64,000 nucleotides of DNA from assembly GCA_963556255.1 (NCBI GenBank), contig OY744615.1:13690918-13754917 (forward strand), written 5' to 3'. Made by a program: the position numbers and the translations under genes. Below, piece after piece: positions 40,196-57,812 of this stretch (position 1 is the first letter of the stretch; every line of letters starts with the position of its first letter). Source of the DNA: Allolobophora icterica (taxonomy: Eukaryota > Annelida > Clitellata > Crassiclitellata > Lumbricidae). The notes beneath the pieces are model-generated. The model made no database searches and was not told the origin of the DNA. It worked only from the letters and a program-made list of their open reading frames with translations.

Positions 40196-40202
40196 TTAAG
40201 GA
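40196..40202. repeat. Left target-site duplication (TTAAGGA)
   Basis: TTAAGGA is repeated exactly at 57813-57819. Polintons make 6-bp duplications. The seventh base is ambiguous because the terminal base of the element can be read as part of either, so TTAAGG or TAAGGA is the true duplication. Confidence 0.9.
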
Positions 40203-40384
40203 GTAGATTACTAACACGGGGTTGGGGACATTACCGTAATTACGTTTAAAACCAGTTTTGACTGGCCTACAACACCCAGTTTTTCTGGTCCCCACCACTC
40301 CATTATCTCACCGAATTAAGAGGATGCCGATCTATACCATCTAGGCTTCCAGAGGGTCCTGAAACCCACGGACAATTATAGCAG
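40203..40384. repeat. Left terminal inverted repeat (182 bp)
   Basis: Aligns with the inverse of 57629-57812. The outer 28 bases are identical and overall identity is roughly 85-90% with small indels; the innermost 45 bp are the most diverged. It contains the small hairpin CCAGTTTTGACTGG. Confidence 0.93.
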
Positions 40385-40852
40385 GCCGACTTCCAGGGCC
40401 TCCTGAGGGCCCACGAACGCTTTGTGTGACCATTTTCATAGTTGTGACTGATAATATGGTCACAAGTGTCACAGTGTCACACTGAGCGGCTTCGGGACAG
40501 GGCCCACAGACCCTTGTCAAAGATTGGTTTCCAAGCAGTGCCTATGGCTATCATGGCTTAGAAGTCTTTTGAATCGTGGTGTTAAGTGAGTCTTTGAAAT
40601 CAGGCTCAATAGAAAGTCCTTTGATATAAAGACCGTCTCTAAGCCAATTCGGCCAAAGCCAAAAAATAAGGATCGTGGATTGCCCTAACACATCAAACCG
40701 CAAGAGTGTTGTTTGCTGCCGGCCGAGACCCTCCCACGAGGCCGGCCCAAACCATTGGAGTGTGCCAGTAAAAATTATAGCCCACTAATCGTACGGCGGT
40801 GGTGCGCTAGGAATTACAGACTCACTACTCCAACCGCCTACGACGAAAATTT
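40385..40852. other. Left subterminal non-coding region of the Polinton
   Basis: No ORF. About 40428-40487 is a cluster of GTCACA/TGTGAC motifs including GTGACTGATAATATGGTCAC, whose near-identical match lies at about 55318-55337 near the other end. It may hold replication or regulatory sites. Confidence 0.4.
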
Positions 40853-41458
40853 TTATATCGTGGTTCGCGGAGAAGACCCAGTGCTGGTTAGTTTCTTGAT
40901 TAGTTCTGCCACCATCTGGTCTTTGCTTTGACTCGGCAACTCTTTTTTTCCATTCTTGCTTTGTATATCACGTTTCATCGTTCTATATTTTTCCTCCTCT
41001 CCCAGAATAAGTTTATATTCATCGTCGCTTATAGCTGTGTCTTCTAACGCCCGAGAAATATGGTCATGAACTGTGTTTAGCTTACTTTCCGCCAAAATAC
41101 AAATTTCGTCGTGTTTTGAAGCTTTAGCAACAAAACTTCTACTGACAACATTTCCAATAATATCCAGAAAACTCGTCGCTATGGCCAAACTCTCCAGAAC
41201 AATACCAGGAATAAAACCAATACCAGTGGCTAACATAGCTGCCCCACCCACCCCAGTTCCAAGACTAACTATAGCAAGGCCGGCCGAGGCCCCATTAGCC
41301 ACATCTACAACCCTCTTATACTTTTTACACAGTTGTCCCCGACTTATCGCCTCGGACCTCAGGAATGCTTCTATTTCGCCGATCTTCTGCAGACGAAATG
41401 TTTGCGACGTCGTGTCTGACGAAATTGTTGACTCCATAAGCGGTGGGTACAAAGACAT
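40853..41458 (-). CDS. Polinton protein with a glycine-rich membrane hairpin (201 aa), unknown function
   Basis: Starts at a clear ATG and is the last gene of the minus-strand block, 5 bp after the preceding stop. Residues about 50-105 form two long hydrophobic segments rich in Gly/Ala (SAGLAIVSLGTGVGGAAMLA and FIPGIVLESLAIATSFLDII) joined by a short turn. This is a membrane hairpin or a soluble glycine-zipper bundle. The flanks are predicted helical and charged, with DTAISDDEYKLILGEEEKY near the C-terminus. I do not recognise a named family. Position next to the fiber genes suggests a late or accessory role; a membrane-active or host-interaction role is only a guess. Confidence 0.85.
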   Translation of the reverse strand: MSLYPPLMESTISSDTTSQTFRLQKIGEIEAFLRSEAISRGQLCKKYKRVVDVANGASAGLAIVSLGTGVGGAAMLATGIGFIPGIVLESLAIATSFLDIIGNVVSRSFVAKASKHDEICILAESKLNTVHDHISRALEDTAISDDEYKLILGEEEKYRTMKRDIQSKNGKKELPSQSKDQMVAELIKKLTSTGSSPRTTI

Positions 41459-41463
41459 ACTTT

Positions 41464-42009
41464 TTACAGTTGCTCTATCAGTAACGTTACGTTTAACTCA
41501 ATAGTTGAAGTACTTAAAACACCTCTCTTTTTTCCTTCAATTCTAAAACCCGTTTGTCCTGGAATGAATATTGCCCTAGATGCATCAAATTGTCCACTTT
41601 GAATGTCAACCGTACGATCGATGCTACCCGCGGCTGTAATAACGCGAACTGACGCATCACCGGTGCTAACACCAAACATTGTAAGCCTCCAGAATCCGCG
41701 GTCTAATGAAATAACCTCATTATTAGTTTGCAACGTAATACATGGATAACGTGCCGCGGTCAATGGAAGCGTTTGCCACGAACTTTGAGTCACAGTTTTG
41801 GTCGCTGTGTAAATATCGCGGCTGTGATAATCGTCCGAAACGAAATCGATGTGGATTTGGGGAACCGCGGCTAACATATCTGCGGTGGGCTTAGGGATAG
41901 TATATCCCCAGTTGGTTAGTCCAACCAAATCATCGAGGTTGTACTTGTGCATATTTGTTTCTCCTTTTTGCCGGAGATATCCCCGAATCTTGTAGTGTGA
42001 GTCGGCCAT
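41464..42009 (-). CDS. Beta-rich late protein, candidate short fiber or fiber head (181 aa)
   Basis: ATG-initiated and 9 bp downstream of the fiber stop. After about 45 N-terminal residues, the rest alternates short hydrophobic strands with turns (QIHIDFVSD, PCITLQTNNEVISLDRGFWR, ASVRVITAAG, STIELNVTLLI). This is the pattern of a jelly-roll or TNF/C1q-like trimeric head; the segment GFWRLTMFGVSTGD followed by a C-terminal ELNVTLLIEQL strand is reminiscent of that fold. There is no confident family match. Its location directly behind the long fiber gene suggests a virion surface component. The promoter-proximal context is TTTAATAATG, similar to that of the major capsid gene. Confidence 0.85.
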   Translation of the reverse strand: MADSHYKIRGYLRQKGETNMHKYNLDDLVGLTNWGYTIPKPTADMLAAVPQIHIDFVSDDYHSRDIYTATKTVTQSSWQTLPLTAARYPCITLQTNNEVISLDRGFWRLTMFGVSTGDASVRVITAAGSIDRTVDIQSGQFDASRAIFIPGQTGFRIEGKKRGVLSTSTIELNVTLLIEQL

Positions 42010-42018
42010 TATTAAATC

Positions 42019-43827
42019 TTATGTTTCCCCGACTTTAAAATATGTATAGATCTGGAAGTGGGATATTCCAAAAGTAGGTTGTGGTGGGCTGGTGGCCAAG
42101 ACCATCAGCCTGAATTTTTTGTATACTCTGTCATCAGTGAAGGTGAACTCTTGTGCAGAATTAGTCAAAGTGACATTGGAGGTGATGAGCACATAAAACA
42201 TATTTTCAATATCGGATGGAATCCCATGAAACTTCCAGGACGTGATACGTGGTGCAGTAGGACTAGATCCCCCAGCCAGACTAACCTTCCATATTCGCAC
42301 AGGCGTCGGGCACTCAATCTGTAACCAAGTCCCACTACCCACAAAATCGGCTCTCGATGTGGACGCTGTCTTCCACTCACCTCTCACACCGGAGTTGAAT
42401 GCCATATGAGGCGGATTGGTGGGGATAGATTCGTTGGCTGAGGCAATGAAACCAGTTTCGGAAGAGTCTCTGGACAGGGGTGGAATGTGGCCGCTGTAAT
42501 TGAGAAACTGAATGCTGTTCACGTACTGTCTTAGAGCGGCCTCTTTACTGTCTGTATACCTTTTAACCACAACAGCCTGATTGTCGACATATTGTTTATT
42601 GGCCACGTTCAAAGGCTCCGTCGGTATTTTATTTAATTTTGTCATTTTGCCGGTTACGATTCTCGTCACCTGCCCGATACTCGCCGCGTCGGTATTAGTT
42701 GTTGAGGCCCCCGTGTAAAGCCCAGTCACCCTCTTACCGCCCATAGCTAAATTTCCAGTCATTGCGTCGCCAACTTTAAGCACGCAAGCGCTCCTGACCA
42801 TAGCGTCTTGTTCTTCGGCGTAAGTTTTTGCAGCTTCGGCTTTCTGGTCTGCGTACCCCCTTGCGGCGGCGGTCTTTTGATCTGTATACAACCTCACGGC
42901 CGAATTAATCGCGGTGTCCTGATCGACCGCGTACTGTCTAGCAGCAATATGTTGAACATCAACATATTGTTTGTTAACCACGTGCAACGACTCCGTGGGA
43001 ACTCTATCGAGGCTCAATAGAGCGCCGGCGACCGCTGTTGACACTTGTTTCCAACTCGCTGCGTCGCTATCAGATCCTGGAATCTCTGTTGGAAGTCCAG
43101 TTACTCGGTGGCCACCCATGACTAAACTTCCAGTCATTACACTTCCAGATTTTAGCACACACGCGTTCTTGACGATAACATCTTGCTCGTTGACGTAACT
43201 TTTTACAATAACATCCTTTTCGTCCGCATACTGCCTAACGGAATCTCTCAGCACCTCGTTCTTCTCGTCCGTGTACTGTTTAGCATCGATAAGCTTCTGG
43301 TCTGCATGGCTCTCGGCCGCGGCCGCCTTCTGGTCCGCGTACAGCCTGACGGCAGTGTCCAGCAGAGCGTCCTTATCGTCTGCGTAACGTTTAACGAGAC
43401 CAGTTACCTCGGAGCTTAAGCCGTCTGCATACAACTCAGCTTGGTGCGCCCGCTCTTTCGCGTACTCCGTTATCTGTTTCCAACTCCCAACGTCGGACTC
43501 CCCCACCAATTCATCCCAACCCTCGTCTTCGCTATCAGATCCCGGAGTGTCCGTGGGCAAACCAGTCAATTTATGACCGCCCATTTTTAGAACGCCAGAC
43601 ATCGTTCCACCGGTGAGTTGCAGGTTGTCCTGATCTACGATGTCTGCATAAGCCTTTGTCGCGGCGTCCGTTTCCATCGTCGGCGTTCCCACATTTGTCA
43701 GCCGAAAACCTCCAGCCGAAAGAATTCCCAGCATGGTATCACCAGCCTTGTGGATGAGCCCAGCGGCGCTTATCTGCCCTCCTCCCACCCCACCTCCACC
43801 GTCTCTTCCAAATTTATCAACCGGCAT
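42019..43827 (-). CDS. Long fiber / adhesin with tail-fiber repeats and a C-terminal F5/8C-like domain (602 aa)
   Basis: The start is the ATG at 43827, just after TATATAAAA; an upstream in-frame TTG is unlikely. After a glycine-rich leader come four modules of the form GDTM-G-L-MGGH-(V/L)TGLPT, at roughly residues 30-60, 70-100, 230-260 and 345-375. Most end in an (A)TK-YAD or NKQYVD motif, the repeat familiar from bacteriophage tail fibers. Between them are long Ala/Asp/Gln/Lys-rich heptad-like stretches (YADQKAAAAESHADQK and variants) that should form trimeric coiled coils. Residues about 440-600 have WKTASTSRADFVGSGTWLQI, RIWKVSLAGG, ITSWKFHG and YKKFRLMV, the layout of an F5/8 type C (discoidin) carbohydrate-binding domain. 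Probable role: virion spike for cell attachment. Confidence 0.9.
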   Translation of the reverse strand: MPVDKFGRDGGGGVGGGQISAAGLIHKAGDTMLGILSAGGFRLTNVGTPTMETDAATKAYADIVDQDNLQLTGGTMSGVLKMGGHKLTGLPTDTPGSDSEDEGWDELVGESDVGSWKQITEYAKERAHQAELYADGLSSEVTGLVKRYADDKDALLDTAVRLYADQKAAAAESHADQKLIDAKQYTDEKNEVLRDSVRQYADEKDVIVKSYVNEQDVIVKNACVLKSGSVMTGSLVMGGHRVTGLPTEIPGSDSDAASWKQVSTAVAGALLSLDRVPTESLHVVNKQYVDVQHIAARQYAVDQDTAINSAVRLYTDQKTAAARGYADQKAEAAKTYAEEQDAMVRSACVLKVGDAMTGNLAMGGKRVTGLYTGASTTNTDAASIGQVTRIVTGKMTKLNKIPTEPLNVANKQYVDNQAVVVKRYTDSKEAALRQYVNSIQFLNYSGHIPPLSRDSSETGFIASANESIPTNPPHMAFNSGVRGEWKTASTSRADFVGSGTWLQIECPTPVRIWKVSLAGGSSPTAPRITSWKFHGIPSDIENMFYVLITSNVTLTNSAQEFTFTDDRVYKKFRLMVLATSPPQPTFGISHFQIYTYFKVGET

Positions 43828-43854
43828 TTTTATATACAAAAAGGTGATGGAAGT

Positions 43855-44231
43855 CTAACATAGGTCAAGCACGATGTCTTCAAAATTCTTTCCAGCAGCG
43901 AGCTCTCTTAGCACGGTCAGGCAGAGATGACCACATACCACATCATCGGGCCCCTGTAGCTGGAACGTTTGAGTTCTTATAGGATTTTTTAAATATCTAG
44001 AAATTTCGAGAGGCGGATCCAGCCCATAACTGTCAAAATAGACGGCTTTTGGTCCATCTATCCAATAGGCGACCCAGTGAGTACCATCACCAGAATCGGA
44101 ATCCAGATTAACAACTCCACACTCCTTCTCACGAGCCACGGCGGGCAGACCATCTCGCATGAAAACACCGCGGAAATGCGGCAGCGCTCCGGCAACTTTC
44201 TCTATATCGAAGTTGCTAAGAGGTTTTAGTT
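43855..44231 (-). CDS. PRO: Adenain-like maturation protease (PRO), probably expressed by -1 frameshift
   Basis: The C48/adenain triad is visible: His in THWVAYW (counting from the first in-frame ATG at 44160, residue 28), Asp in YFDSYG (43), Gln 69 and Cys 76 in VVCGHLCL. The protein should cleave capsid precursors during maturation. The first in-frame ATG (44160) leaves out conserved N-terminal residues including FDIEK and FRGVF, which are encoded upstream in the same frame. No ATG exists between there and the in-frame stop at 44260-44262. The frame is -1 relative to the preceding gene and joins it at A AAA AAC (44229-44235). The coordinates given begin at that junction. Alternatives are a non-AUG start or reinitiation at 44160. 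Confidence 0.9.
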
Positions 44232-44798
44232 TTTTTGTCCGATGTAGAGACCCGATCCTTTACACATTGGACAACAACCACCACGAGTCTGGCGCCCGAG
44301 ATATAAACCGGTTCCACGGACCTGAGCTTCGAGTTCGCGATTATGACGCGCGGCCTCTGCTAAAGCCGCGTCGTCGATCCGTTTTTTCTCGGCTTGGGCC
44401 GCATCGCTGGCCTGTTTCTTGCGCAGAGCCTCTGCATCGCTGGCCTGTTTGTTGTGCACGGCCTTTGCCACCTCGGCGGCCCCTCCAGCCGCGGCACCCA
44501 CCGCGGTTAACCCGCCAAAAATCAGCGGGAGGAGAGCCAGTAGTGGAAGAAATCCGCCAGATTTTGTCATCTTTTTCAATTGCGTTTTGGTGAATCTCAG
44601 CTCCATGCCAACGCCTGAGGTAATCTTCTTTGCGATTCGTGCGGCTTGAACCTTCGTAAGCGCGAGCTTGTCGTCTCCGCGAAGCTGGCCATGAGTGAGC
44701 CGGATCGTGGCGCCAGTGCCGGCACGCGCAGCTCTAGCCAATGTTTGCTTTTGCCCTTCGGTCAGTGAAAGGCCGAACGCAACGTATTCAGTTTTCAT
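44226..44798 (-). CDS. pX-like minor virion protein (190 aa)
   Basis: ATG start; 57 bp after the major capsid stop. The N-terminal half (SLTEGQKQTLARAARAG, IRLTHGQL, LRFTKTQLKKM) is a basic, repeated beta-alpha pattern found in Polinton/adintovirus minor proteins. Next come a hydrophobic Gly-rich membrane-active segment SGGFLPLLALLPLIFGG (about 80-96), then an Ala/Lys-rich helix. The C-terminus has two GLY(L/I)G motifs flanking a CC-C cluster, a typical ending of this family. Homology to adenovirus pX or pVI is by analogy. The final codons include a slippery heptamer immediately before TAA. Confidence 0.85.
   Translation of the reverse strand: MKTEYVAFGLSLTEGQKQTLARAARAGTGATIRLTHGQLRGDDKLALTKVQAARIAKKITSGVGMELRFTKTQLKKMTKSGGFLPLLALLPLIFGGLTAVGAAAGGAAEVAKAVHNKQASDAEALRKKQASDAAQAEKKRIDDAALAEAARHNRELEAQVRGTGLYLGRQTRGGCCPMCKGSGLYIGQKN
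44229..44235 (-). promoter_or_regulatory. Predicted -1 ribosomal frameshift site (A AAA AAC)
   Basis: On the minus strand the zero-frame codons are CAA AAA AAC TAA, so the X XXY YYZ heptamer A AAA AAC sits directly before the stop. A -1 slip enters the protease frame without interruption. This heptamer is one of the most efficient known eukaryotic slip sites and is used by retroviruses. Whether a downstream stimulatory structure exists was not computed. Confidence 0.75.
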
Positions 44799-44855
44799 TT
44801 TTGGAAAAAATATATCTAAAAGAGGGCCTTGTATCTAAATGTGAAAAACCGATTT

Positions 44856-46151
44856 CTAGTAGACGACGTTGAATTTGCTGCCATCCGATTCAAAATTCAG
44901 GAGTCGGTCGCTGATCAGGACGGCATATGCTGTCGTATTATTTGGTACCCCTTCGTTAAAGTCCACCTTGATTTGTATGTCCTGTACAGAGGTTTTAAGT
45001 CGTTCAGATTGCCTCCGCACGTCCAGAACGAAGATCGGAAACAAATCTACAAATTCGATTGGTGTCAGTTGGCATGACGATTCACGCGCGTCTATGCCGC
45101 AATATTCTTCCTTGAAGTCACGTAGGGCCTTGTAAGCGCGAGAGGTTGTCCTCTTGGTGAAGTCGAGATTCATGTCAACCACCGGGTAGCGATCGCTGTT
45201 GAGCATAGCGAAAATGTTGCGAACCTGCACATGGTCAAACAGTGCCGGATTCTGGCCTTGATGTGCATTCTTTCCAGTCTGAAAAGCAACAAGAATCCAG
45301 CGTGGCTTTTCCGTGCCCGACTTAACGCTCAAACGCCAGGAAAAAGTCGTCGCTCGTGGCACCGCAATGTTGTCGCATTGCATGGCGCGGAATGCCACAG
45401 GTACCTTAACCTTGGCTTCAATCTGCTTCATAAGCATGCTTTTATACTCCAGAGCGGGTATTATATGCGGCATGAACCAGGAGAGTTTAGTCAGCGTGAT
45501 CTGGCCATTGACCGCAGCGGCTTCCTTAAAGATCGCGTCTGCATCTCCCTGCCGGCTCAGCAGTAAGGAGTGTTTAATCCCGTATACGACTTTGTGGTAA
45601 TCATCGCAAAAGCCGAATAGATGTCTTAAGGGAACAATGAATGAAAACGTTCCAATAGGGACGGGTTTTCCAATGATCATCAGTCGACGGGCCTCGAAGC
45701 CGATATTCGCGGTCGCCGCCGCCGCACTCGTGTCCTTCTGCCAACACATGTTTAAACCTTCGCCTTTGGAAAAATCATCGCCGTATACCAGCATGCCTTT
45801 CATCGTCGTGGCTTGCCCAGGTGACATGACATTCTCTATCTCGGTGTTGTTAGCCAGGTATCGAATCTGAGAAAACATGTACGGGATGGCGTTGTTGATG
45901 AATGACACCAACGTGTTTGCGATGTAAGCGGCGCCTGTTGTTGTAAGCCTGCCCTCCACAAGAAGGTAGCTCTTAGAAGGCTGTGTGAAAATGTCTTGGT
46001 TCTGGATGTCTATCTGTATGGCCTGGCCATTGTTAATAGCCGCAGGGTTTTGTGATTCATACTCGCGGTATTCAAACGATTCGATGCTATTGTCATCGGG
46101 CACCGCCGAAGCGATGTCCAACATTTCACTCGGCACGTCAAATGCCGCCAT
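44856..46151 (-). CDS. MCP: Major capsid protein, double jelly-roll (431 aa)
   Basis: ATG preceded by CTTATAATA. Length and layout match Polinton hexon-like major capsid proteins. The N-terminus (SIESFEYREYESQNPAAINN) is followed by a first beta-rich domain with QIDIQNQDIFTQPSKSYLLV, and VPLRHLFGFCDDYHKVVYG leads into the second jelly roll (SWRLSVKSG, PRWILVAFQT, DHVQVRNIFAMLNSDRYP). YAVLISDRLL and the C-terminal VVY close the protein. It should form pseudohexameric trimers making the icosahedral shell. It lies between the pVI-like and pX-like genes. No break is seen. Confidence 0.93.
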   Translation of the reverse strand: MAAFDVPSEMLDIASAVPDDNSIESFEYREYESQNPAAINNGQAIQIDIQNQDIFTQPSKSYLLVEGRLTTTGAAYIANTLVSFINNAIPYMFSQIRYLANNTEIENVMSPGQATTMKGMLVYGDDFSKGEGLNMCWQKDTSAAAATANIGFEARRLMIIGKPVPIGTFSFIVPLRHLFGFCDDYHKVVYGIKHSLLLSRQGDADAIFKEAAAVNGQITLTKLSWFMPHIIPALEYKSMLMKQIEAKVKVPVAFRAMQCDNIAVPRATTFSWRLSVKSGTEKPRWILVAFQTGKNAHQGQNPALFDHVQVRNIFAMLNSDRYPVVDMNLDFTKRTTSRAYKALRDFKEEYCGIDARESSCQLTPIEFVDLFPIFVLDVRRQSERLKTSVQDIQIKVDFNEGVPNNTTAYAVLISDRLLNFESDGSKFNVVY

Positions 46152-46176
46152 TATTATAAGTAAAAAAGTTCAAGCT

Positions 46177-46725
46177 TCAATTATTAATCATGCTGTAAAT
46201 GAATTTCATGTGTGGTGGGTAAAGCTTTTTGCGTTTTTTATGAATTAGTCTGAAATTTTTTAAATTGTATTTCGCGAGAAACAGACCCCTACCACCGCGA
46301 CTCGGCTTTATAGTCTTGAAACCGGATCCAGCAATGCGGCTGTTTATGTCAGCCATTGTCGGAACAACGGGTGGTGGACTCACAGCCAGTTGTTTTAAGT
46401 ATTCAATGCTCTTGTCGCTGAGCGCCTTCTCCAAAGGTGCGGGAACAACAGGCGCGGCAGATGAATTTTCATTTCGTAAATGAGCTTCATTTACGGCCGC
46501 AGCGCGTCTCGCTTTCACGGCATCAACAATTTGCCTGACGGCAGATGCTGTTGTGGCGCCGGCTTTCGCGACATTACCAACCGCCTTGGCAACGTTTGTG
46601 ATTGTGCCTCTATTCGCCGAAATGAAGGAGCCTGCACGGCCAAGGAAACCCGCGATTTTGGGTATCCAGTCGAAAAGTCCACCACCCACGACACGACGCC
46701 GCTTTTTAATTCCAAGAACAAACAT
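46177..46725 (-). CDS. pVI-like membrane-lytic minor capsid protein (182 aa)
   Basis: The chosen start is the ATG at 46725 (MFVLGIKKRRRVVGG); the upstream GTG overlaps the penton gene. A basic stretch and VVGGG are followed by an amphipathic helix LFDWIPKIAGFLGRAGSFIS. This resembles adenovirus pVI, where an N-terminal propeptide ends at a Gly-Gly protease site before a membrane-disrupting helix. An Ala/Val-rich helix and a proline-rich linker follow, then a very basic C-terminus (HKKRKKLYPPH). Likely role: endosome or membrane escape after processing by the protease. The Gly-Gly cleavage is inference. Confidence 0.85.
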   Translation of the reverse strand: MFVLGIKKRRRVVGGGLFDWIPKIAGFLGRAGSFISANRGTITNVAKAVGNVAKAGATTASAVRQIVDAVKARRAAAVNEAHLRNENSSAAPVVPAPLEKALSDKSIEYLKQLAVSPPPVVPTMADINSRIAGSGFKTIKPSRGGRGLFLAKYNLKNFRLIHKKRKKLYPPHMKFIYSMINN

Positions 46726-46747
46726 GAGAATATTTAAGTGTGAAAAT

Positions 46748-47542
46748 CTACGCACTGCAGATGTGAAACCTTATAGTTACTGTCTCACCGCGGAGGTTTA
46801 ATTGTTCACCATTCTGGTCGGTCAGCCACACACGAATGCCCTGTACGTTGCCAGCCGGTGCTACTGGTAGGTACACTAGATTTTTCGGAGACTCGATTAC
46901 CTTATAGCCGGGCGACACATCCGGGAAAAAACTGTAGATTACTGGCAGCTGGCTACCATTTCGATACGATCCAGAGATAATATCACAATTTACCAGGATT
47001 GTGTCCACCCGGAGAATATCGACTGGATTTTCTCCCTCTTTATAACCAAGACTAAGCGTCTGAGGGTTAAAACCGAGCGTTTGCCTGATGGTAGATGCGG
47101 CCATATCTACCTTAAAACGGGCTTTCGTTATCTTTACGAAGGCGCGAAGGGTAGATGCGTTAGCTCCTACAGTAATAGGAGAATCAAAGCTGAGTTGAGC
47201 AACACCTGGCGGCGGCGGATTTTGCATTTCTAACTGCCGGCTGATTTCATAATTAATCTGTGCGATCTCGTAGCTTCCGTCGGGTAAAATGATCGTCTTC
47301 CAGGTCTGTCCATTGGTGGAGCTGTAGACGAACTTGTTATTTGAACTGTCAATGTTCGGAATCGAATTATAGGTTTCAAGATTGACCAAAGCAAGCTCAA
47401 AGCGTCTTTTTGGATCCAGGTACAGCGGCGGTGAGAAAGCCGTGGTCCACCCTGTAGTATCTGAGGAAACAACTATACTAAAATTTTCCTTAGGCTGCAA
47501 AAGGTCTCGAATTTCCTCGAGCAGTTTCTCCGAGCGTTCCAT
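46748..47542 (-). CDS. mCP: Minor capsid / penton protein, single jelly-roll (264 aa)
   Basis: ATG start. Conserved Polinton penton blocks are present: FELALVNLETYNSIPNI near residue 50, ILPDGSYEIAQINYEI near 85, and RQTLGFNPQTLSLGY. The C-terminus is a strand-rich GIRVWLTDQNGEQLNLRGE. This protein plugs the fivefold vertices and probably anchors the fiber. It is 23 bp upstream of the pVI-like ATG and 11 bp after the next upstream stop. Confidence 0.92.
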   Translation of the reverse strand: MERSEKLLEEIRDLLQPKENFSIVVSSDTTGWTTAFSPPLYLDPKRRFELALVNLETYNSIPNIDSSNNKFVYSSTNGQTWKTIILPDGSYEIAQINYEISRQLEMQNPPPPGVAQLSFDSPITVGANASTLRAFVKITKARFKVDMAASTIRQTLGFNPQTLSLGYKEGENPVDILRVDTILVNCDIISGSYRNGSQLPVIYSFFPDVSPGYKVIESPKNLVYLPVAPAGNVQGIRVWLTDQNGEQLNLRGETVTIRFHICSA

Positions 47543-47552
47543 CTTGTGTACT

Positions 47553-48653
47553 TTATTTTATGAGCATGTTTCTATTCAATTCGAGTGCCAGCTCTTTGGA
47601 GATCGCACCGGAACGCAGTAACTCGTCAAGAATGGCGGAGATTTCGTTGCCGAGACCTGTGTTTCCCGCGGCCCTAGAGGCCACCAAAAGCTGCAACCTC
47701 TCTACCAGGGCGTTTGGATCGTTGTAAAATTGCACCGCGCCGCCTCGAATCAGCTGGAACTTTTTACTTTTCCGGCCATGAATAGGCAGACCAGACATCT
47801 GTACGAGCTTTTTAAAAGTCTCGATTGCCTGAGGCGAGTATTGCTTAGTCTTAACGAAGCGTTTTGTTAGTAGGCTGAACAACGACTCATCGGCCGGAGA
47901 TTTGAGCACGAGGTTCCCACCTTTAAACACTCTCAGTCTACCAGCAGACAGCGCGACGGGGTCAACGGAGAGCTCACCCAAGGCGTTACCTTGTAATTTC
48001 AGAGGAACGGCTGGGACACTGAAACCCTTTCCCTTTTTGATGAGGCTGTGGCCCGCTAGCAGTGTATGGATTCGCTTTTTATATTCCCTTAGAGCTTCGA
48101 TATCTGCAGTCACCTCATCTACCTTTTCTTCGTCTCCTTGCTTATTGGCTTTCTTTTTCTCTTTGCCCAGGGTATGGCGATTATAGTGATTTACCTCGCC
48201 GATTATCTTTTCAGCACCTGCAATATCGGCTAGATCGAGCTCGCTCGGAGGTTTAAACCCATGCCGTGTGATTGCCGCGACGTTGAGATATTTGTTTGGA
48301 TCGACTAACAATGCGGGGGGAATTCGGGATGCTGGAAGTGCTGGAAGGGCTGGAGCAGCTGTTCCTGCGGTATCACCGAACAAAGCTGCTATCGGGTTAT
48401 AATTAGCAGACTCTGAAATCTGCGCCGGCAAATCCTGTAAAGCGCTGGTAACTTTCTGCAGCTCCTTAGACGTAGCCGCCTGGGATTCAGCCGTGGCTGT
48501 GGCGATTGGTTTGAAAAGCTTTGCCGCATCGTACTGAAGGTTGGCTTCACCGAGCTTCTCATCCACGAAACGCTGTCTCAATCGATTTCTGCGAGCTAAA
48601 TAATCCTGAGTTAACGCGTCTCGCTCCTGTTTAGAAGAAACCTTTGTCCACAT
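47553..48653 (-). CDS. Conserved Polinton structural/core protein (366 aa)
   Basis: ATG start; a helical, charged N-terminus (RDALTQDYLARRNRLRQRFV) is followed by an Ala/Pro-rich linker. A basic helix (KEKKKANKQ) lies mid-protein. The well-conserved C-terminal part contains LPIHGRKSKKFQLIRGG and then a YNDPNALVERLQLLVAS motif. The latter is typical of a Polinton protein that accompanies capsid genes; the biochemical function is unknown. Its place between ATPase and penton genes supports a virion-assembly or core role. Confidence 0.85.
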   Translation of the reverse strand: MWTKVSSKQERDALTQDYLARRNRLRQRFVDEKLGEANLQYDAAKLFKPIATATAESQAATSKELQKVTSALQDLPAQISESANYNPIAALFGDTAGTAAPALPALPASRIPPALLVDPNKYLNVAAITRHGFKPPSELDLADIAGAEKIIGEVNHYNRHTLGKEKKKANKQGDEEKVDEVTADIEALREYKKRIHTLLAGHSLIKKGKGFSVPAVPLKLQGNALGELSVDPVALSAGRLRVFKGGNLVLKSPADESLFSLLTKRFVKTKQYSPQAIETFKKLVQMSGLPIHGRKSKKFQLIRGGAVQFYNDPNALVERLQLLVASRAAGNTGLGNEISAILDELLRSGAISKELALELNRNMLIK

Positions 48654-48693
48654 CGTGATTGTATGTCGGCTATATGTTGCCTATATCGTGTCT

Positions 48694-49380
48694 TTAAATA
48701 CTTGCCTTGGGCTTATAGAAGCGATCGAACCCGCAGCGATATTTTCCATCGTACACTTTAGACGTCAAATCTATGACTGCGAATCCATATGGCTGGGCAG
48801 CACACTCGCTGAAGAACGTACGGAACTCATCGAAAGACATGTCGCCGCCCACGAACGTATCGTGAATGGCTCGCAAATTTTTACTGTCTTGGTTGAAGAG
48901 GACGATAAGATTAGCATTGTCACGGATCGCTTGCTTCGGAATTCGAAAATAATTCTGCGTTAAGTAGAAGCAGTCCGCGCCACCGTGTCGACCCATAGTG
49001 AAATACCTTTCGATGGGCGACTGTTTTTCAAGCATGACGTCATCGAACACTAGAAGGCTTCTGGCATTCTTATTTAATGATTCAACTGGAACTATTTCAT
49101 CTGAGCAAGAGTGAAAGGAAGCCACTTCCTTCCCGGCAACTTTTTCCAACTCTGTAACCCAGTCCCGGAGGAACTGATATTTTTCCTGTCCCAGAGACTT
49201 CGAGTATAGATACAGCCGATCAAAACGCAGGTACCCCTTCTTCAACAGAAGGTTAAGCAGTAGGTTTGTTTTCCCACATCCGCTAGGCCCACAGATTATG
49301 CACCGTATGCTGGATGGTAACAGCCAATGGTGGTGTTTTTTTCCATCGTCGGCTTCGAGATCGAAATTTGTTATTTCCAT
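48694..49380 (-). CDS. ATP: DNA packaging ATPase, A32/FtsK-HerA type (228 aa)
   Basis: The chosen start is the ATG at 49380 (MEITNFDLEA); the longer frame upstream is probably untranslated because it overlaps the divergent plus-strand gene. Walker A is GPSGCGKTN (residues 31-39), Walker B is SLLVFDDV (108-115), and a TQNYF sensor-like segment lies at 141-145. These are the hallmarks of genome-packaging ATPases of Polintons and nucleocytoplasmic DNA viruses. First gene of the minus-strand late block. Confidence 0.93.
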   Translation of the reverse strand: MEITNFDLEADDGKKHHHWLLPSSIRCIICGPSGCGKTNLLLNLLLKKGYLRFDRLYLYSKSLGQEKYQFLRDWVTELEKVAGKEVASFHSCSDEIVPVESLNKNARSLLVFDDVMLEKQSPIERYFTMGRHGGADCFYLTQNYFRIPKQAIRDNANLIVLFNQDSKNLRAIHDTFVGGDMSFDEFRTFFSECAAQPYGFAVIDLTSKVYDGKYRCGFDRFYKPKASI

Positions 49381-49418
49381 ATAGAGACAACGAGTTATGA
49401 TTGTATTCAACGAAAACA
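49381..49418. promoter_or_regulatory. Divergent start region between ATPase and phospholipase genes
   Basis: Only 38 bp separate the two start codons, so at least one transcript must start inside the opposite gene, or a compact bidirectional promoter lies here. No TATA box is obvious. Confidence 0.4.
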
Positions 49419-49979
49419 ATGTATTGCCTACGATGTAAGAAACATACTGAGACTTCAAATGAAACAATTGTCGAGTTACGAAACGGTCGGCCAGCCAAGA
49501 AGGGAACCTGTGCCGTCTGCGGTGCAAAGAAGAGCCAAATTTTGCCTTCTAAAGTGCGAAAGACTGGAGGTTCTCTACTGAATAGGGCCCTCAACGCTCT
49601 TCCTCTGCCTGAGATGCATATGAGTCTTCCATCCGGTATGTCTTCGGAAGATAATCCGGGAGGTTCTTTTCAGAATACGGGAAAGTACTCTTACTGTGGA
49701 CCATTCACAAAACTCGATAAACGGCTGTCACAGCGCTATCACGGTGTTAATCAGCTCGACCGTGCGTGCCTCCACCACGATGTGGCTTACGCAGTTCATA
49801 AAGATACTCCAGGGCGTAACCACGCAGATGACATCCTCGCTGCAGCCGCGTCGAAGATCGCACTCACCGATGAAACTCCGGATTATGAGAAGAAGGATGC
49901 CCGGCTCGTATCGGCCATTATGTCAGCGAAGTCGAGGCTAGGGATGGGTGTCAGAACGAGCCAGCGAAAACGCAAATGA
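49419..49979 (+). CDS. Zinc-ribbon plus parvovirus-type phospholipase A2 protein (186 aa)
   Basis: The start is taken at MYCLRC (49419) because it opens a conserved zinc ribbon: C3, C6, C31 and C34 in CLRC and CAVC. A middle segment KTGGSLLNRALNALPLPE is amphipathic and starts with Gly-Gly, a possible protease site. Residues about 92-140 give YCGPFTKLD, then LDRACLHHDVAYAVH, then DDILAAA. These are the Ca-binding loop, the His120-Asp121 dyad and the third helix of the phospholipase A2 fold used by parvovirus capsids for membrane escape. The basic tail is RTSQRKRK. Known role in other virions: membrane breach during entry. Confidence 0.9.
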   Translation: MYCLRCKKHTETSNETIVELRNGRPAKKGTCAVCGAKKSQILPSKVRKTGGSLLNRALNALPLPEMHMSLPSGMSSEDNPGGSFQNTGKYSYCGPFTKLDKRLSQRYHGVNQLDRACLHHDVAYAVHKDTPGRNHADDILAAAASKIALTDETPDYEKKDARLVSAIMSAKSRLGMGVRTSQRKRK

Positions 49980-50029
49980 AAATCATTTGTGTATGTGTTT
50001 ACCTGTTTGTAATATATAGTATTACTGAA

Positions 50030-51036
50030 ATGTCTAAGCACCTTTCAGCCGTCTATTACAGCCCTAGAGGTTACTGGCGAGGTAAGGCTGCGGTGAAGAA
50101 ACTAGCCTCAGCCGCCAAAGTTTCCGAGGCGGAGGCTCGCGATTGGCTGAAGAAACAAGCTGTGTGGCAGATTTATCTACCCGTTCCTCGCCCCATACCG
50201 CATCCAAAGTTTGAGGAAAATCGACCAAACGCCGTACACCAAGCCGATCTCTTGTTTTTACCTCACGATAAAGTAGGTCGAAAGACTTATAAATACGCTC
50301 TCACTGTTGTTGATGTTGCCTCACGATACAAAGAAGCTGAACGTTGATCAACAAAAGTGCGACCGAAGTCGCCGCCGCTTTAAGCCGGATCTATAAGAGG
50401 GGCCCATTAACTTGGCCTCGACTCTTTCAGGTCGATCCTGGACGCGAATTTATGGGTGATTTTACACCGTTGCTGACGAAGCACGACGTTCTTGTAAGAC
50501 GCGGACAGGCCGCAAATCATCGTCAACAGGGCATCGTTGAACGCTTTAACCGTACTCTAGCTGAGCGACTTTTCGGTGCCCAGTACGCTCAGGAATTGCT
50601 CCTGGCTGCAAGGGGGTCATCCGAACGGTCAGTGGAATGGGTTCGCCGGATGCCCGAAGTTGTTGCTGCACTAAACGATGAGCCGACGCGCTTGCTCGAC
50701 ATGAAGCCGGTTGAAGCGATGAAAGCTGCTAAAGTGACACAGAAGCCCTCTCATTCGCAAATTCGTTTGTGGGGAATGGATGAGCCTATTCTCGGACACG
50801 ACGTTCTCGTCCGATATTTATACGCTCCCGGCGAGCTCGAAGGTGGAAGCAAACGTGCCACCGATCCTAACTGGTCGCTCACCATCCACGCTATTTTGGA
50901 TGTTGTTCGGCAGGCTGGCCAGCCGGCTTTATACCATCTAGTTGATGGGCCTGGCCGCGGGTTTGTACGTGAGGAGCTGCTTCTGGTGCCTATGGGCACT
51001 GAGTTACCCCCCGATAGAATACTCAACCGTCGTTGA
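50030..51036 (+). pseudogene. INT: Retroviral-like integrase, broken by one frameshift
   Basis: The start is taken at 50030 (MSKHLSAVYY), an ATG after the phospholipase stop. The N-terminal helical part (GKAAVKKLASAAKVSEAEAR) and WQIYLPVPRP lead to HQADLLFL with the first catalytic Asp (residue 73). A shift at about 50342-50344 moves the frame by one base; the second part then encodes FQVDPGREFMG (second Asp). The catalytic Glu lies 35 residues later in GIVERFNRTL, a complete DD35E triad. The C-terminal SH3-like tail has RGFVREELLLVP. One missing base explains the break, so it is a recent loss or an assembly error. Confidence 0.9.
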
Positions 51037-54000
51037 TTTTGTAGTGCCCATATGCCAGCGTTGTTATCCCATCGGCCTCGATCCACTTTTTTGTGTCTAA
51101 TGGAGAGAGGCTGATCTTATTCTGCTCGTACACTCCGATCTGGTGGTCGTGGCTTCGAATCACGACTTGTGTGTGCCGCATCTCTTCTCGTTCGAACAGG
51201 CACTCCTTGTATAGCTCGTGGTGCAGATCCTTCTTCACAACTGCTCTCTGAACGCCTTTAGCTTTCCTGATCTCTGAACCACCCGATTTTAAGATCGAGT
51301 ACATCTTCGGACGCAGTCCCACGAATTCGGCTATGGCAACTCCGTTACATTCATCCTTGAACTTGCCCACGACTTTCTTGTTCTCGACGTCGTAGTACGG
51401 GCTGTCTCTGGGAAACTCACTAAAGTCGTATGAGTGTTTTTTGTTCCACATATCGGCATAGGCGTTCGGAGTTTCCACCTGAAATAACAGGCTGTCAGTG
51501 TCTGTATACAGCAACTGGGCTTTTTCTCCGTACTCATTTTTTACATCGTTATACCAGAAGTCGTACATCAGATGCTTGCTGAGGTCGAGGACAGCCTGGC
51601 CGACATATACAGGTCTGTTTAACTTGAGCTTGTTCTTCAAACTGTGAATCGCGGCGAGTTGGTCGTTGAAGATTTTGTGTGATATGTAGGCCGGGTCAGC
51701 AATTAGTTTACGAAGTTTGTCAACTTTTGAGGTCGGTACCAGGTTAACTCTGATTCTTTTTCTAAGATTTTCCATGGTCTTTCCAAAGACCGCATTATTA
51801 GCCAGTTTGAAGAAATCCTTCTCAAACTCCGACGTTGCCTTCGCTCTCAATTTCGTATTCATCTCGATGTATGGAGCCATCCATGCCTCCTGTCTAAACT
51901 TAATGACACGATGAATTTTAGAAACTCGTAGCCCTAACGAGTGGTAGAGTTTGAGATTTCTATAATGGACCACATACCGCTCCTTAGGTCGTAGGCTTGG
52001 TACTAACTTCACATGCTTTGTGAACTTGCCTCCCAACTCGTTCATAAGCACATTCTGATAGTCACTCAACCACTCCTCTTGGACTGTCAGGGTCTCCGGT
52101 GCTAAGGGATAGTCGCTATGTGATTCGTGGAGGTGCTCCGGGTACCCGAGATCGACTTCAAGTAGGAAGCCTTCAGGCGCGTCATCTGGAGTTTCCAACA
52201 CTTCATCGAGAGTTGGACTTTCCCAGCTAAATCCTCCAACTGGCAGTGGCTGTTGCATCGCCCAGCCGTAAAGATTATTCGCGTCGAGATACATGATCCA
52301 GTTGTCTGGCTTCGTGGTATCGTAGTCGGGGCATTGTGGGTTGTTGGCTTTTGCGAAGCGCTTAGATACCATCGAGATTCCACCTCGGAGACCTTTCTCT
52401 ACGAACAAATGCATATCTATATCGGTTAAAAGTTCGAGCTCGATCTTCGTCTTTTTCAACAAAGCGTCCCAGGCCATTCCTGGCAGGCTGAAGTAATTTG
52501 CCGGATCTAAACTGTAGTGTTTCATCGATGTGTTTCTGAAGGTCTCGAAGACATCTGCGAGTAGAAGTACATCCGTGCGGAGATACAGGTCGTGATAGTC
52601 GCCCAGAGTTTTACAGTCGAATTCGTTCCATACTCTTTGGGCGTGTTGATAATCCTCATCAGAAATGTTCTCTCGGGAGAGCCTGCTGTAGAACGCTTCT
52701 TTGGGTGGAAGTCGGTCTTCTTCGAAGCGGTGGTAATCGTCAATGTGCTCGTAACAATATACGCCCTTTCGCCTCAAAAGATCTAGTTTTGTCCTATCAT
52801 TGTGAACGAAACTTTCCTTTATATATGCTGCTGTGACTTTCAAATCCTCTAGCGATAGGTTTCCTGATAATTTATCCAAAGAGCTGTTTAGAAACTGGAG
52901 ACTATCGATGAACTGTAGTTGCCCAATATTAAATGTCATATATTTCTCCATATTGTTTGGAATACAGTTAATTTCAGTTTGTTCATCCTGTGCAGCCTCA
53001 CAGCTACCTATCGCTTGCATTATGAGGTGGCTGTCGTAACCTCGCAGATTGTGGAAGACCACCGGTACCTTACACTTATCGGGATATATTCGAAGTTTGA
53101 GGTTGCAGGCGTTGTGAGCAGCACCTCGGTACTTACCGGTAATGTGGCAGTGGTCGCGAACTCTATCCGCTTCGAGCGCTTCTCCGCAGATGTGACATTC
53201 GATAGCCTCGCGGAATGATTGGCGATCGGCCGGTGACATAACCATCTTAGCTGGGGTGGCCAGCCTTTGTTTGATAGTGGCTAGCTCGCCTTGTAGTCGT
53301 TGTAGGAACTCTTCCACGGCGTTTTCTCCACGATATAGCACCGGCTTCTTGGTGCGGCCATCGTATCGAACCACTATATAACAGAAGCTACACGGTTTCT
53401 GCTCAGCTATCTGTCTGGTGTTGCTCTCGCTGGGATTCATGGCTGCACCTTCGATTGGTATGTTTAGAGCCTCGAAGTCCGCGTAAATAATATACGGAGT
53501 GCGCATCTGTTTGTGATGGTTCTGGAATTTGAGGATATTTTCATCCTCTTTTGGCATCTCAATCCGCTGAGGCTTCTGACTAATGCCCTGACAATCTTTG
53601 ATATGAGCATCCAGCAAGTCTTGTCTACAGAATATGTGTAGGCAGCGACGGCATGGGTGTTTCTTGCTTTTGTCTTTGCTATTTTGATTAAGAATTCGGC
53701 CAAGGTCTTTAATCCAGACGTAGTGGTAATTCTCACCACTGACTAACAGTAGAAGATCGATATTATAGTCTCTATTGGTCTGCTTTGAGACATAAATTGG
53801 ATACAAAGCTTTATCCCACCCGAAGACTGAGACGCTTATATTAGGGTTCTGACGTTCGAACTTACCGATATCTGTGACCTTCACTGGAAATTCTATACCA
53901 TCGAAGTTTAGCTCGAGGAGGTGGCCCCGATACTTAGTTGGGCGATCTGGATTTTGTCCATGACCTACTGGATACATAGCACTTAATATGGCCCACTCGA

Positions 54001-54768
54001 AGCATCGGTTATCTTTATTCTTTACATTAATAACCGTACGAGGGGGTATATACTTTGGTGTAGGAAAGTAGCTCCTTGCACGAAATGGTTGATATTTTGC
54101 AACGCTGAGGTCTACCGCCACGACCCGCCTCACCCTCCAGCCTGACCCCTCATTGGTATAGTCCTCGAGGCTTTTTAGTACTTCGGCCTTGGCCTTTCGT
54201 ACAGCCCCTTGGATTTTACTCGCATTCGTAATTGGCACTGCTTTGCTTCGAAAGTAGGCCGTATTGGTAATAGTACCCGGGGTCGCGTTTCCGTCGTACA
54301 ACATGTCAACGGTCGGAGCCAGCTTTTCCAACTCAACTGTCAACACTTGCGAGTATTTCAGACCGTCTTGTTTCAACAGCTCTTCGTTGAGTTGCGCCTC
54401 AATGTTGTGCTCCATTGCACTCAAGAAAGCCAACGCATCTCTTTCCAGCCTGTGGTTAAGAGGTACTTCTGCACGGAAGTCTCTCAGAAGCTGGTTGGCG
54501 AGCTCTTTGTGTACTAGAAATGGCGGTGGTCCACCTCTCTCCTTCTTAATGAGGAGCGGGTCGAATTGTGCTAGAAGGGATTTACGTTTTGCCCCTCTAT
54601 GCTTGCGCACTGGAGGAATTGGCCTTGGAAGCAGTGGCTGTAGTAAGCGCCTTTTGACTGCATCTGGGATAGGTTCGTCTAAGATATTTTTTAGAACAGC
54701 TCGAAGAGCTGGGGGCCAGTAAACTCACCCAACAATTGTGCAATTTTTTCATTCGTAGACAATGCCAT
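51023..54768 (-). pseudogene. POLB: Protein-primed family B DNA polymerase, with one frameshift near the N-terminus
   Basis: The frame open from 54610 gives 1,195 aa. By residue: CRRC...H...C finger 320-340; exonuclease motifs YADFEALN 376-383, NLRGYDSH 521-528 and YLRTDVLLLAD 676-686. Polymerase motifs are YLDANNLYG 774-782, KLANNAVFGKTMEN 935-948 and LLYTDTDSLLF 1033-1043. A second cysteine/histidine cluster (482-506) resembles an HNH/endonuclease VII module. The frame has no ATG at its start; the only good ATG (54768) is in another frame that joins after a run of five G at 54711-54715. One lost base there explains it. All catalytic residues remain. The 3' end overlaps the integrase by 14 bp, convergent. 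It replicates the element using a terminal protein as primer. Confidence 0.93.
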
Positions 54769-54928
54769 AGTTATAAGTTATTTTATACTACTGTGGCAAA
54801 CTTTTCTTTAATATAATAATTATATCATTTGTTCAAAATGAAATTTTGTTTACTGATATTCGATTGACGCTTGCTCATCTGTATTATCTCAATACAATAA
54901 CTATATCATTTGTTCAAATGATTATTTT

Positions 54929-55204
54929 TTATTCCACTGATATATTTGATAGTCGCTTCCATTCCTTATTAAATTCACGGACTAACCCACCTCGTCGAGC
55001 TCTGAAATATTTAGCGAAATAACCACACTTCATACACTCACCCAAGCGGTTTTTGATACCCCTCCCACATTTAGCGCAGGGTTTTGTCCCACAACCGTTT
55101 CGCAGTCGTGCTAAATGCTTGAAACAGTACTCCCCAATGCACCTGTGGCAGCAGAGATTTGTTTTGCCTATCATAAGCCATTTGCAAAAGTTTTGCCCCA
55201 ACAT
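54929..55204 (-). CDS. Small cysteine-rich zinc-binding protein (91 aa)
   Basis: ATG-initiated and upstream of PolB on the same strand. Cysteine pairs occur as FCKW, LCCHRC, YCFKH, GCGTKPCAKCG and ECMKCG, enough for two zinc sites. A basic C-terminal helix ends in FNKEWKRLS. Similar short proteins occur near PolB in other Polintons, but their function is unknown; a nucleic-acid-binding early regulator is plausible. Confidence 0.75.
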   Translation of the reverse strand: MLGQNFCKWLMIGKTNLCCHRCIGEYCFKHLARLRNGCGTKPCAKCGRGIKNRLGECMKCGYFAKYFRARRGGLVREFNKEWKRLSNISVE

Positions 55205-55301
55205 TATGATTTTATGTATACCATAACATATTCTTTTATTTAAATTGAAAAAATTCTGAACGACTTAAGATGCTTCTGCAGGAAGAGGCTCCTAGCTTAG
55301 T

Positions 55302-55358
55302 GTGACGCCGTGACACTTGTGACTGATAATATCGTCACACTGTGAAAATGGTCACATT
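55302..55358. repeat. GTGAC/GTCAC cluster matching the left subterminal region
   Basis: TTGTGACTGATAATATCGTC here matches TTGTGACTGATAATATGGTC at about 40441-40460, and the surrounding TGTGACCATTTTCA appears inverted. This looks like a subterminal repeat present at both ends of the element. Confidence 0.6.
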
Positions 55359-55361
55359 TTA

Positions 55362-55661
55362 GGGGCCGTCCATATATTACGTACGCAAAAATTCCGGGAA
55401 AATTGGACCCACTCGGCCAGATTGAAGGAGTGAGGGCCAATATAGACAAATTATAGGTGTCTCGTTCACAGGACAGAATAATTGCACATGGCTTTTATAT
55501 AATGTAATAAAATGCCATTGGGCGACTATAGGACAATACAGTTATAATGTGGACCTACAGAGTTATAGAAATTTATTTTGCGTACGTACACATTTTGTCC
55601 CCCCGCACCCGTACGCAAAATCCGACCCCCCTAAGTGCGTACGTAATATGTGGCTGGCCCC
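55362..55661. mobile_element. MITE inserted in the Polinton (300 bp, TTA duplication)
   Basis: Starts GGGGCCGTCCATATATTACG and ends with the inverse of GGGGCCAGCCACATATTACG. The flanking TTA occurs at 55359-55361 and 55662-55664. The ends GTACGTAATAT and GGGGCC are typical of a MITE family widespread in invertebrates. ORFs across it are not genes. Confidence 0.8.
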
Positions 55662-55829
55662 TTATGACTTCTAAGCTAAAAGCGTTCGTTGGTCTCATAA
55701 ACCTGTTCTCTTCTAAGAGGATTCCTTGATTTCGATTCTTCCTCTTGTCCTTTACCCGTTTCAACTCTAAAAAACAACTCACCTTTTCACTGACGCATTT
55801 GGATCTTGATCCCCCCACCTCTCGATCAT

Positions 55830-56612
55830 GATTTGACTGAGCGCTTGTGAATAGCTGGTTTTTCACTACTTCACTTTTTGTGCGCTATAGCAATCTCCAA
55901 AGTATTATGATTATGCCTTAAGCGTCCGTCTGATCGATTTCACTAAGCGCCTATGAATAAGCTAGTTAATACCACGACTTCGCTTTGGGCGCTATAGAAG
56001 TCTCGAGATTTTGATTACGATTGTGATTTACGGTCACCTGTTCCTCTTTCTAAGGGCCAAACCTCAAAAACTTAACACACTGCTGTTCGAGTCCTCCTTT
56101 CACTTACCTTCCTGGCCATTAAAAAACCATCTATTTTTGCTTTGACTAAGCACCTGTGAACAAACTGGCTACCCACACCTGTTTTTGGGCGCTGTGGATA
56201 TTTCGAGATAGATTACAATCAGGGCTGTAGTGGCAACATTAAAGGTGAGTACACGCTACCGGTTAGTTTTCCAAAACAAATTACAGGCGAGTATACGCCA
56301 CAGTATTTTCGAGTAAACACTACAGTATTTTAATATAAATAGAAATATTTTGCGAGGCGAGTATACGGTCTCTAGAGGCGAGTATACGCTGTATACCCGC
56401 GTATACCTTCGACTACAGCCCTGATTATGATTACGATTGAACTCCCATCAATTGCGAGGAGTGGGTCAAATTCCGCCAGAAGGGCCTTCGTTTTGCCCCT
56501 CTATGACACCACTCAACTTAATCATCCCAATCAGACCAACCGCCTATGAATAAGCTGGTTACCACTATAGAAGTTGCAGCGTTATGCCACTCTGGTGCTA
56601 TAGAAGTTACCT
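55830..56612. repeat. Four diverged tandem units (GCGCCTATGAATAAGCTGG ... GCGCTATAGAAGT)
   Basis: Units at about 55835-55920, 55921-56030, 56141-56460 (split by a MITE) and 56500-56612 each carry A(C/G)CGCCTATGAATAAGCTGGTT followed about 45 bases later by GCGCTATAGAAGT and then GATTATGATTACGATT. No coding potential. These could be a regulatory or replication array of the element, or an older insertion. Confidence 0.6.
56220..56423. mobile_element. hAT-like MITE inside the Polinton (204 bp)
   Basis: Ends CAGGGCTGTAGT and, inverted, CAGGGCTGTAGTCGA. Flanks ATTACAAT (56212-56219) and ATTATGAT (56424-56431) match 6 of 8. GGCGAGTATACG is repeated four times inside. It splits the third tandem unit. 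Confidence 0.65.
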
Positions 56613-57628
56613 TACAAAACAAGACAAAACAATATTTATTAACACAATCACAAAGTCTAAAGCCTACGGTTAAGTACTTCGCTGCGACGAGATTTGTGAA
56701 ATCTAAAAACGGTTTCTGACACGCTGTAAAAATAGAACTTATTGTAAGCAATGCAAAAAAAGCTGTTCACAGCAGCTGCAGCTGCTTAAAACGTAGGAAT
56801 AAGGCGTTAGGCTGTGTCTGTACAAGCGGTGCTAGCTAGAAAATTCGTCAGCAGAGTTAAATGAGGTCAAACGGTTCTGTGTGTGTGTGGTAGACGAGGC
56901 TGATGTGGAACAAAGCTGATCAAGATGAATCAATCATATATACCATTATATCTGAAAAAGAGAAAAATTCATTCATTTCTCCGTCCACCTATCCACCCGT
57001 TCATCCATTCGTCCATCAATTTCATATCACAATCTTTAACATTTTTGAGGTCGAACATGTTATATAAGATATCATATTGAGATAAACTAAAATATTTAAA
57101 AACGTAAAAAATTCAAAACTTAGTAAGTATATATGAGCCATCTTACAATAATTGTTAAAAAACGAAACGCTGTAGGCCTATGAAATTCACATAATTTACT
57201 GCCAGTTAATGAGGCAAACTTCAGTAGGCCTACACAATGCTTTAATTTACGCAGTTGGTGAATGAATGCACGTCAGAGCATATTCGCATGGCGTTATACG
57301 CATCTTTTTAAAGAAACTCCAGCAAAACTTTTTATACTTCTCTGTGCGTTAGGTGTGCCGCCGAATCCATAGACAATACACTGTAAAGAATATGTTTTTC
57401 CCAAATCGGTAAACTGGTGAAAAACGATGTAAATGGTTCTTTAGTTCGTCCGGCGGCCATTTGTGTTGAAACAGAAACTGACACGTAGGCAAGTCTAGAG
57501 TTGATCTCCAGTCTCGCCGCTAGACGGCGTCAGGGAAGCAAAGACGTACAGATTAGAGCACAGCGGTTCGGCTTGCAGGTTTTTGGTGGAAAAATACGTA
57601 GCGCAATTCCCACACCAACAAAATCGAT
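56613..57628. other. Right non-coding region of the Polinton
   Basis: No ORF with any feature and no delimited repeat seen. Confidence 0.4.
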
Positions 57629-57812
57629 CTGCTATAATTGGCCCGTGGGATCTACGGACAATCTGGAGGCCTAGATGGTATAGACCGACATCCTCTTAAT
57701 TCGGTGAGATAAGAGGATGGTGGGGACCAGAAAACTGGGTGTTGTAGGCCAGTCAAAACTGGTTTTTAAACGTAATTACGATGATGTCCCCAACCCCGTG
57801 TTAGTAATCTAC
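57629..57812. repeat. Right terminal inverted repeat (184 bp)
   Basis: Inverse of 40203-40384. The outermost bases read GTAATCTAC. Confidence 0.93.

Follow-up and report, generated by a model that had tools for sequence, protein, structure and literature searches.

A probable −1 frameshift site between the pX-like and adenain-like protease genes of a Polinton in Allolobophora icterica

Adenain, the adenovirus proteinase with a pVI-derived cofactor, is made from its own start. In retroviral gag-pro of the MMTV type, the virion protease extends the C terminus of a structural protein in a minor share of the product and is reached in the −1 register at a heptamer of the form X XXY YYZ; the MMTV gag-pro slip site is A AAA AAC. 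The accessible text of PMC5009743 counts A_AAA_AAC among the heptamers at which mammalian ribosomes shift most readily and names the MMTV gag-pro pseudoknot. For adintoviruses, −1 shifts have been suggested near the 3′ end of some Penton genes by use of KnotInFrame in a 2024 preprint (PMC11071296), and a similar relationship was proposed there for potential hexon–adenain fusions, called Hexain, a name that occurs once in the accessible text of that preprint, in a passage that carries no comparative test. A pX–protease frameshift was not found in the literature searched, most subscription papers lying outside its scope: in the accessible parts of PMC10120064, PMC8363768, PMC10675110, PMC12721341 and PMC12567637 the term frameshift is used in other senses or of other viruses, in PMC11071308 and PMC8547959 it does not occur, and in PMC4028283 it does not occur as a whole word. 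An earlier note on this DNA had held that no such arrangement was described in Polintons; within the literature searched this stands for the pX–protease shift, and it was too broad in view of the −1 shifts proposed for adintovirus Penton and hexon–adenain products in the accessible text of PMC11071296.

Here we analyse a 64-kb stretch of Allolobophora icterica DNA (the window) in which a Polinton carries a protease frame behind a pX-like gene and an A AAA AAC heptamer. Like gag-pro of the MMTV type, the junction combines a −1 register with an X XXY YYZ heptamer, and the protease would extend the C terminus of a structural protein in a minor product; an RNA structure is predicted a few nucleotides downstream. 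Unlike gag-pro, the element is made of double-stranded DNA, the enzyme is an adenain-type cysteine protease and not an aspartic one, and the partner is pX instead of Gag; where MMTV has a pseudoknot, a simple hairpin is predicted here, by folding without pseudoknots. With the adintovirus Penton isoforms and Hexain, as the accessible text of PMC11071296 presents them, the locus shares a suggested −1 shift, the involvement of adenain and the same broad virus group, but the partner in Hexain is hexon. The protease resembles adenain in its fold (matches to 1nln and 1avp) and in its profile and, unlike adenain, is without a start of its own. What appears to be new is pX as the partner, together with comparative evidence of a site kept across diverged elements.

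The Polinton and its genes

The element, of about 17.6 kb (Table 1), carries the features by which Polintons and adintoviruses are recognized: a double jelly roll (DJR) capsid protein, a family B polymerase (PF03175, E = 1.6e-22), an A32-type packaging ATPase (Pox_A32, E = 3.4e-8), terminal inverted repeats (TIRs) that are 88.7% identical to each other, and a short target duplication on both sides. On the minus strand the gene order is capsid, pX, protease and a fibre-like gene, the last being so named from its appearance and pX from a match below threshold. The integrase match (rve, E = 0.0082) is below the cut-off and lies on an interrupted frame, and for this reason the copy in the window may be defective for integration.

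Table 1 Features of the window discussed in the text
Feature	Position	Strand	Remarks
Polinton element	40202..57813	.	TIRs of 191 and 193 nt; TTAAGGA at both flanks
Protease open frame	43855..44259	-	134 codons stop to stop; −1 to pX
First ATG after pX stop	44160	-	Met34 of the stop-to-stop protease frame
Predicted hairpin	44183..44222	-	6 nt past heptamer; from folding
pX gene	44226..44798	-	190 aa; ATG 44796–44798, stop 44226–44228; Adeno_PX E = 0.023, 15 bits (cut-off 25)
Slippery heptamer A AAA AAC (AAAAAAC)	44229..44235	-	pX stop codon directly after
Major capsid protein (double jelly roll)	44856..46151	-	upstream of pX; PF21738 E = 9e-56
Second small basic hydrophobic protein	46177–46725	-	near the capsid gene
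Gene with DUF5679 and phospholipase A2-like domains	49419–49979	+	PF08398, E = 1.5e-9
Interrupted integrase frame	49889–51036	+	two overlapping frames; weak rve match in the first

The pX–protease junction

The pX protein has a hydrophobic segment and a Cys-rich C-terminal tail. Its gene ends CAA AAA AAC TAA on the minus strand, as the earlier note had read it, and the heptamer stands in the pX frame as CA/A AAA AAC/TAA. The protease frame is, again as claimed, exactly −1 to pX and open over the junction, which gives the arrangement expected of a −1 frameshift site, an in-frame X XXY YYZ heptamer with a second ORF at −1. The chance of any canonical heptamer of this form in a random five-codon stretch, drawn with the codons of the element, is 0.0074. 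After the slip the protease frame reads K K L K P L S N F D I E, and the post-slip sequence is KKLKPLSNFDIE. The upstream in-frame stop of the protease was rightly described as close to the slip, but it ends 24 nt before the heptamer and not about 27 nt. No ATG precedes Met34, a residue inside the fold, in agreement with the earlier statement that the protease lacks an upstream start, and the protease is absent from a list of ATG-initiated ORFs (floor 120 aa) that shows the capsid, pX, penton-position and other genes. A count of cleavage motifs in pX (262, against a shuffled mean of 153) was set aside, because many of the matches lie within the hydrophobic segment and the window copy has none near its C terminus.

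Fold of the protease

A Pfam search of the protease gave no match, and a profile of 22 sequences matches the adenovirus proteinase in the PDB (E = 3.9e-4). The AlphaFold model has a mean pLDDT of 90.7; its best Foldseek match by E-value is adenovirus proteinase 1nln (9.4e-7; TM 0.62 by query, 17% identity), and the 12 matches with E ≤ 0.001 include ASFV pS273R as well as some bacterial Ulp1-like effectors. The modelling points to an adenain-like (Ulp1-type) cysteine protease fold, in which H61 and C109, invariant across 54 protease sequences, would by analogy be catalytic. Residues 1–7 of the model have a pLDDT below 50, and the block 11–20 averages 94. Since KK, the product of the slip codons, takes up residues 9 and 10, the folded protease starts about where the frameshift would join it.

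Copies in the same genome

A protein search of the 1.12 Gb genome gave 1646 candidates, of which the best 150 were scored, all of those listed being without an internal stop; since candidates were taken best-first, this is a biased sample. A C/T-A7-C run is kept in all 38 aligned loci (two are the window itself) and in 20 further loci. In one copy, L023, TAA replaces CAA just before the run and brings the pX stop just ahead of the heptamer. We chose 59 copies for comparison (the window, L002–L008, L010–L038, L049, L064 and L069–L088) and excluded the broken fragments L057 and L059. The heptamer is present in all 59, and the first downstream Met is at the same codon in every one. Before the slip, back to the upstream stop, the protease frame holds no Met in any of them; that stop is 24 nt from the slip in 53 copies and farther away in six.

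A search pattern of the two flanks with any 5–13 nt between them occurs at 699 places in the genome, against eight for the reversed pattern. Among the first 100 of the 699, in genome order, one match is unrelated to the Polinton family; 95 of the remaining 99, counted by eye, read C-A7-C, and the four altered runs are A10, A6G, A8 and A6. The copies are closely related, and for that reason their agreement lends the heptamer itself little weight. Both frames are nevertheless under purifying selection: in 30 full-length copies the pN/pS ratio of pX is 0.18 and that of the protease 0.09, with wrong-frame controls on the protease stretch at 1.4 and 2.8.

The same genome provides an internal contrast. 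A second pattern occurs at 32 places, and the 30 loci fetched comprise 26 of another Polinton family, two of the slip type (L049 and L064) and two that are broken. The protease frame of the other family has an ATG 17–20 codons before LTNF/LSNF in 25 of the 26 loci; L047, of this family, appears frameshifted. Of three loci examined, L045 and L065 have the protease immediately after the apparent end of a PolB frame, and in L041 a small frame separates the two. A protease that is not behind pX thus carries its own start.

Metagenome relatives

Protein searches gave 141 protease relatives (best 120 listed) and, in two pX searches, 105 and then 564 relatives (best 120 listed). When viral contigs were scanned with the capsid protein, the protease and the protease alignment, no relatives could be confirmed, nor did a tblastn search of phage records yield any. 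The metagenome relatives are thus known only at the protein level, and we inferred their DNA from the two frames that overlap, asking of each pair whether the pX C terminus and the protease N terminus can share one DNA string. Across 22,264 pairs (184 pX by 121 protease proteins), with at least eight protease residues in the overlap and the first residue left out of the test as a possible start codon, 14 pairs fit in −1 and one in +1. All 14, the window pair included, force A AAA AAC or A AAA AAT; they involve seven protease proteins and so are not 14 independent cases. A smaller run of 756 pairs with a floor of six residues gave 15 fits in −1 and one in +1. Three of the −1 pairs come from contigs equal in length and source (P0123/P0003, 1356; P0127/P0009, 13171; P0238/P0014, 15164), as does the +1 pair P0156/P0015 (2464), and we take each of these pairs to lie on the same contig. 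Few pairs are able to fit, because only 49 of the 121 protease sequences have at least six residues upstream of LSNF.

KK lies within seven residues of LSNF in 16 of these 49 sequences, the window included. In 11 proteases of the same spacing, again with the window, the two KK columns have an entropy of 0 bits and the five columns before them 1.9–2.7 bits; conservation of the protease frame thus starts at the heptamer, the part upstream of it drifting. Of the 105 pX relatives from the first search only 18, two of them distant (P0219 and P0220), end in KN. KN falls one codon earlier in P0148, P0149 and P0152 (KNR) and in P0153 (KND), and the strings that combine KNR with a KKQIKP start and KND with KKRLTP also hold the heptamer. 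Different endings are found in many further pX relatives, which are truncated or more distant. Endings in YKN (P0271, P0285, P0287, P0293, P0298, P0300 and P0301) were not counted, since no canonical heptamer is possible there, and we left unclassed KKR (P0154, P0158, P0159), PKK (P0132), KKD (P0240) and the odd P0193.

The earlier note had reasoned that close relatives with an ATG for the protease at this point, or without the heptamer, would mark a local mutation; among the metagenome relatives the outcome is mixed. The −1 site is conserved, and the exceptions are P0011, the +1 cases and the altered runs. P0011 (70% identity) has its own Met nine residues before LSNF and is without KK, which is also missing from P0036 (53%).

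Predicted RNA structure

At a −1 frameshift site a structure is expected after a spacer of 5–9 nt. The hairpin predicted 6 nt after the heptamer is found in 57 of the 59 chosen copies; that of L080 has one mismatch, and L073 is without it. Synonymous-codon controls folded as well in a fraction of at most 0.053 for 11 of 13 distinct segments, and of 0.14 and 0.22 for the other two, in a test whose segments are related, whose span was chosen after the hairpin had been seen and whose folding is without pseudoknots. The fold of the window itself has z = −1.6 over 65 nt and an unremarkable −0.48 over 105 nt. A hairpin downstream of the heptamer is plausible, with moderate support from these predictions.

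Frameshifting and its alternatives

We consider it very likely that −1 ribosomal frameshifting at this site gives mostly pX and some pX–protease fusion. This was the reading of the earlier note, which is very probably correct in its mechanism, and it fits the tests best because of the register, the kept heptamer, the absence of a usable ATG in the family, selection on two frames and a fold order that begins at the slip. Most ribosomes that reach A AAA AAC while translating pX would terminate at the UAA next to it and so release pX, and a smaller share, perhaps aided by the hairpin, would slip back one base into the protease frame and make a fusion joined at the KK codons. The frameshift would set a low ratio of protease to pX, and, by analogy with retroviral Gag-Pro, pX should carry the protease into the capsid. 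The frame geometry, the heptamer, the lack of an ATG, the conservation, the two-frame selection and the adenain fold are observations, from which we infer frameshifting and its rate, a part played by the hairpin, packaging and a later cleavage. More tentatively, the Cys-rich pX tail fused to the protease N terminus could be a built-in activating peptide, by analogy with the pVI-derived peptide that acts on adenain in trans; each protease would enter the capsid with its own activator and later be freed by a cut in pX upstream of the tail, an idea that we hold as doubtful.

If the frameshift reading is right, a lineage of double-stranded DNA viruses has evolved the same means as retroviruses of dosing and packaging its virion protease. 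The pX-type protein would then be a likely constituent of the virion with a link to the protease, and the route of Polinton proteases into the particle could be tested by means of a short reporter. Because the protease gene is missed or truncated by gene callers, annotations of Polinton proteases may need re-examination.

Transcriptional slippage, in which RNA polymerase adds one A and a fraction of the mRNAs encode an in-frame fusion, seems unlikely. The site is an A-run whose length differs in the four altered copies listed above, and P0294 (an ena contig of 3107 nt) has pX and protease in a single frame, joined at the run in SKKISPLSNF, as either a true fusion or a run-length change. Loss of one A could also serve the +1 relatives: the pX endings of P0125, P0144, P0155 and P0231 resemble the +1 case in reading past the run as if it were one A shorter, and such cases may be decayed copies, like L057 and L059, or a real variant. 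However, the forced runs of the −1 pairs, at lengths of 6, 7 and 8, all keep an in-frame A AAA AAY, and in several relatives the run is only 6 A, the minimum that the heptamer requires and short for polymerase slippage.

We regard as unlikely an independent initiation that yields free protease, be it from a start in the overlap, by termination–reinitiation at the pX stop, or at a near-cognate or downstream start. Its support comes from the metagenome proteins. Among the 15 KK relatives, 12 are called with a Met start 9 to 46 residues upstream of KK; for P0009 the forced string makes that start GTG and not ATG, but others may have an ATG there and may initiate in the overlap. A Met lies two residues before LSNF in P0024, P0025, P0026, P0030, P0034 and P0037 (58–63%) and near LSNF in P0019 (62%). 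For P0026 the junction itself is not forced; the pX protein P0248, on a contig equal to that of P0026 in length (3831) and source, has SKNR at its end and, when paired with P0017, fits in −1 and keeps the heptamer. Gene callers also often begin at an internal MRD, as in several of the listed protease relatives. Against this stand the lack of an upstream Met in any of the 59 own-genome copies and the lack of conservation in the residues preceding KK, and a start at Met34 would, on the AlphaFold model, cost the protein its first helix and the greater part of its first strand, in a region where residues F29–R35 are kept in at least 90% of 54 sequences.

Splicing of an upstream ATG exon onto the protease has a very low probability. 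Adenovirus late mRNAs are spliced, and an AG lies about 12 nt past the heptamer, but conservation of the protease frame begins at KK, ahead of that AG; no AG directly precedes KK in the window, and the model predicts neither a heptamer nor a fixed register. The interrupted integrase frame might have suggested that the junction is due to local mutation or to an assembly error in a copy that is dead, a reading refuted by the occurrence of the same junction in hundreds of copies and in other sequences.

Further observations on the element

The Polinton family occupies about 690 places in this one 1.12 Gb genome, many of them nearly identical and with open frames, which points to a large and recent amplification. 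On the plus strand of the element, a gene combines a DUF5679 domain with a phospholipase A2-like domain (Table 1), and a precomputed match to the same PF08398 is found in the two distant pX relatives P0219 and P0220. The second small basic hydrophobic protein encoded near the capsid gene has a GRGLFLAK stretch that resembles the pX tail, and its gene contains an in-frame heptamer cluster 25–27 codons before its end.
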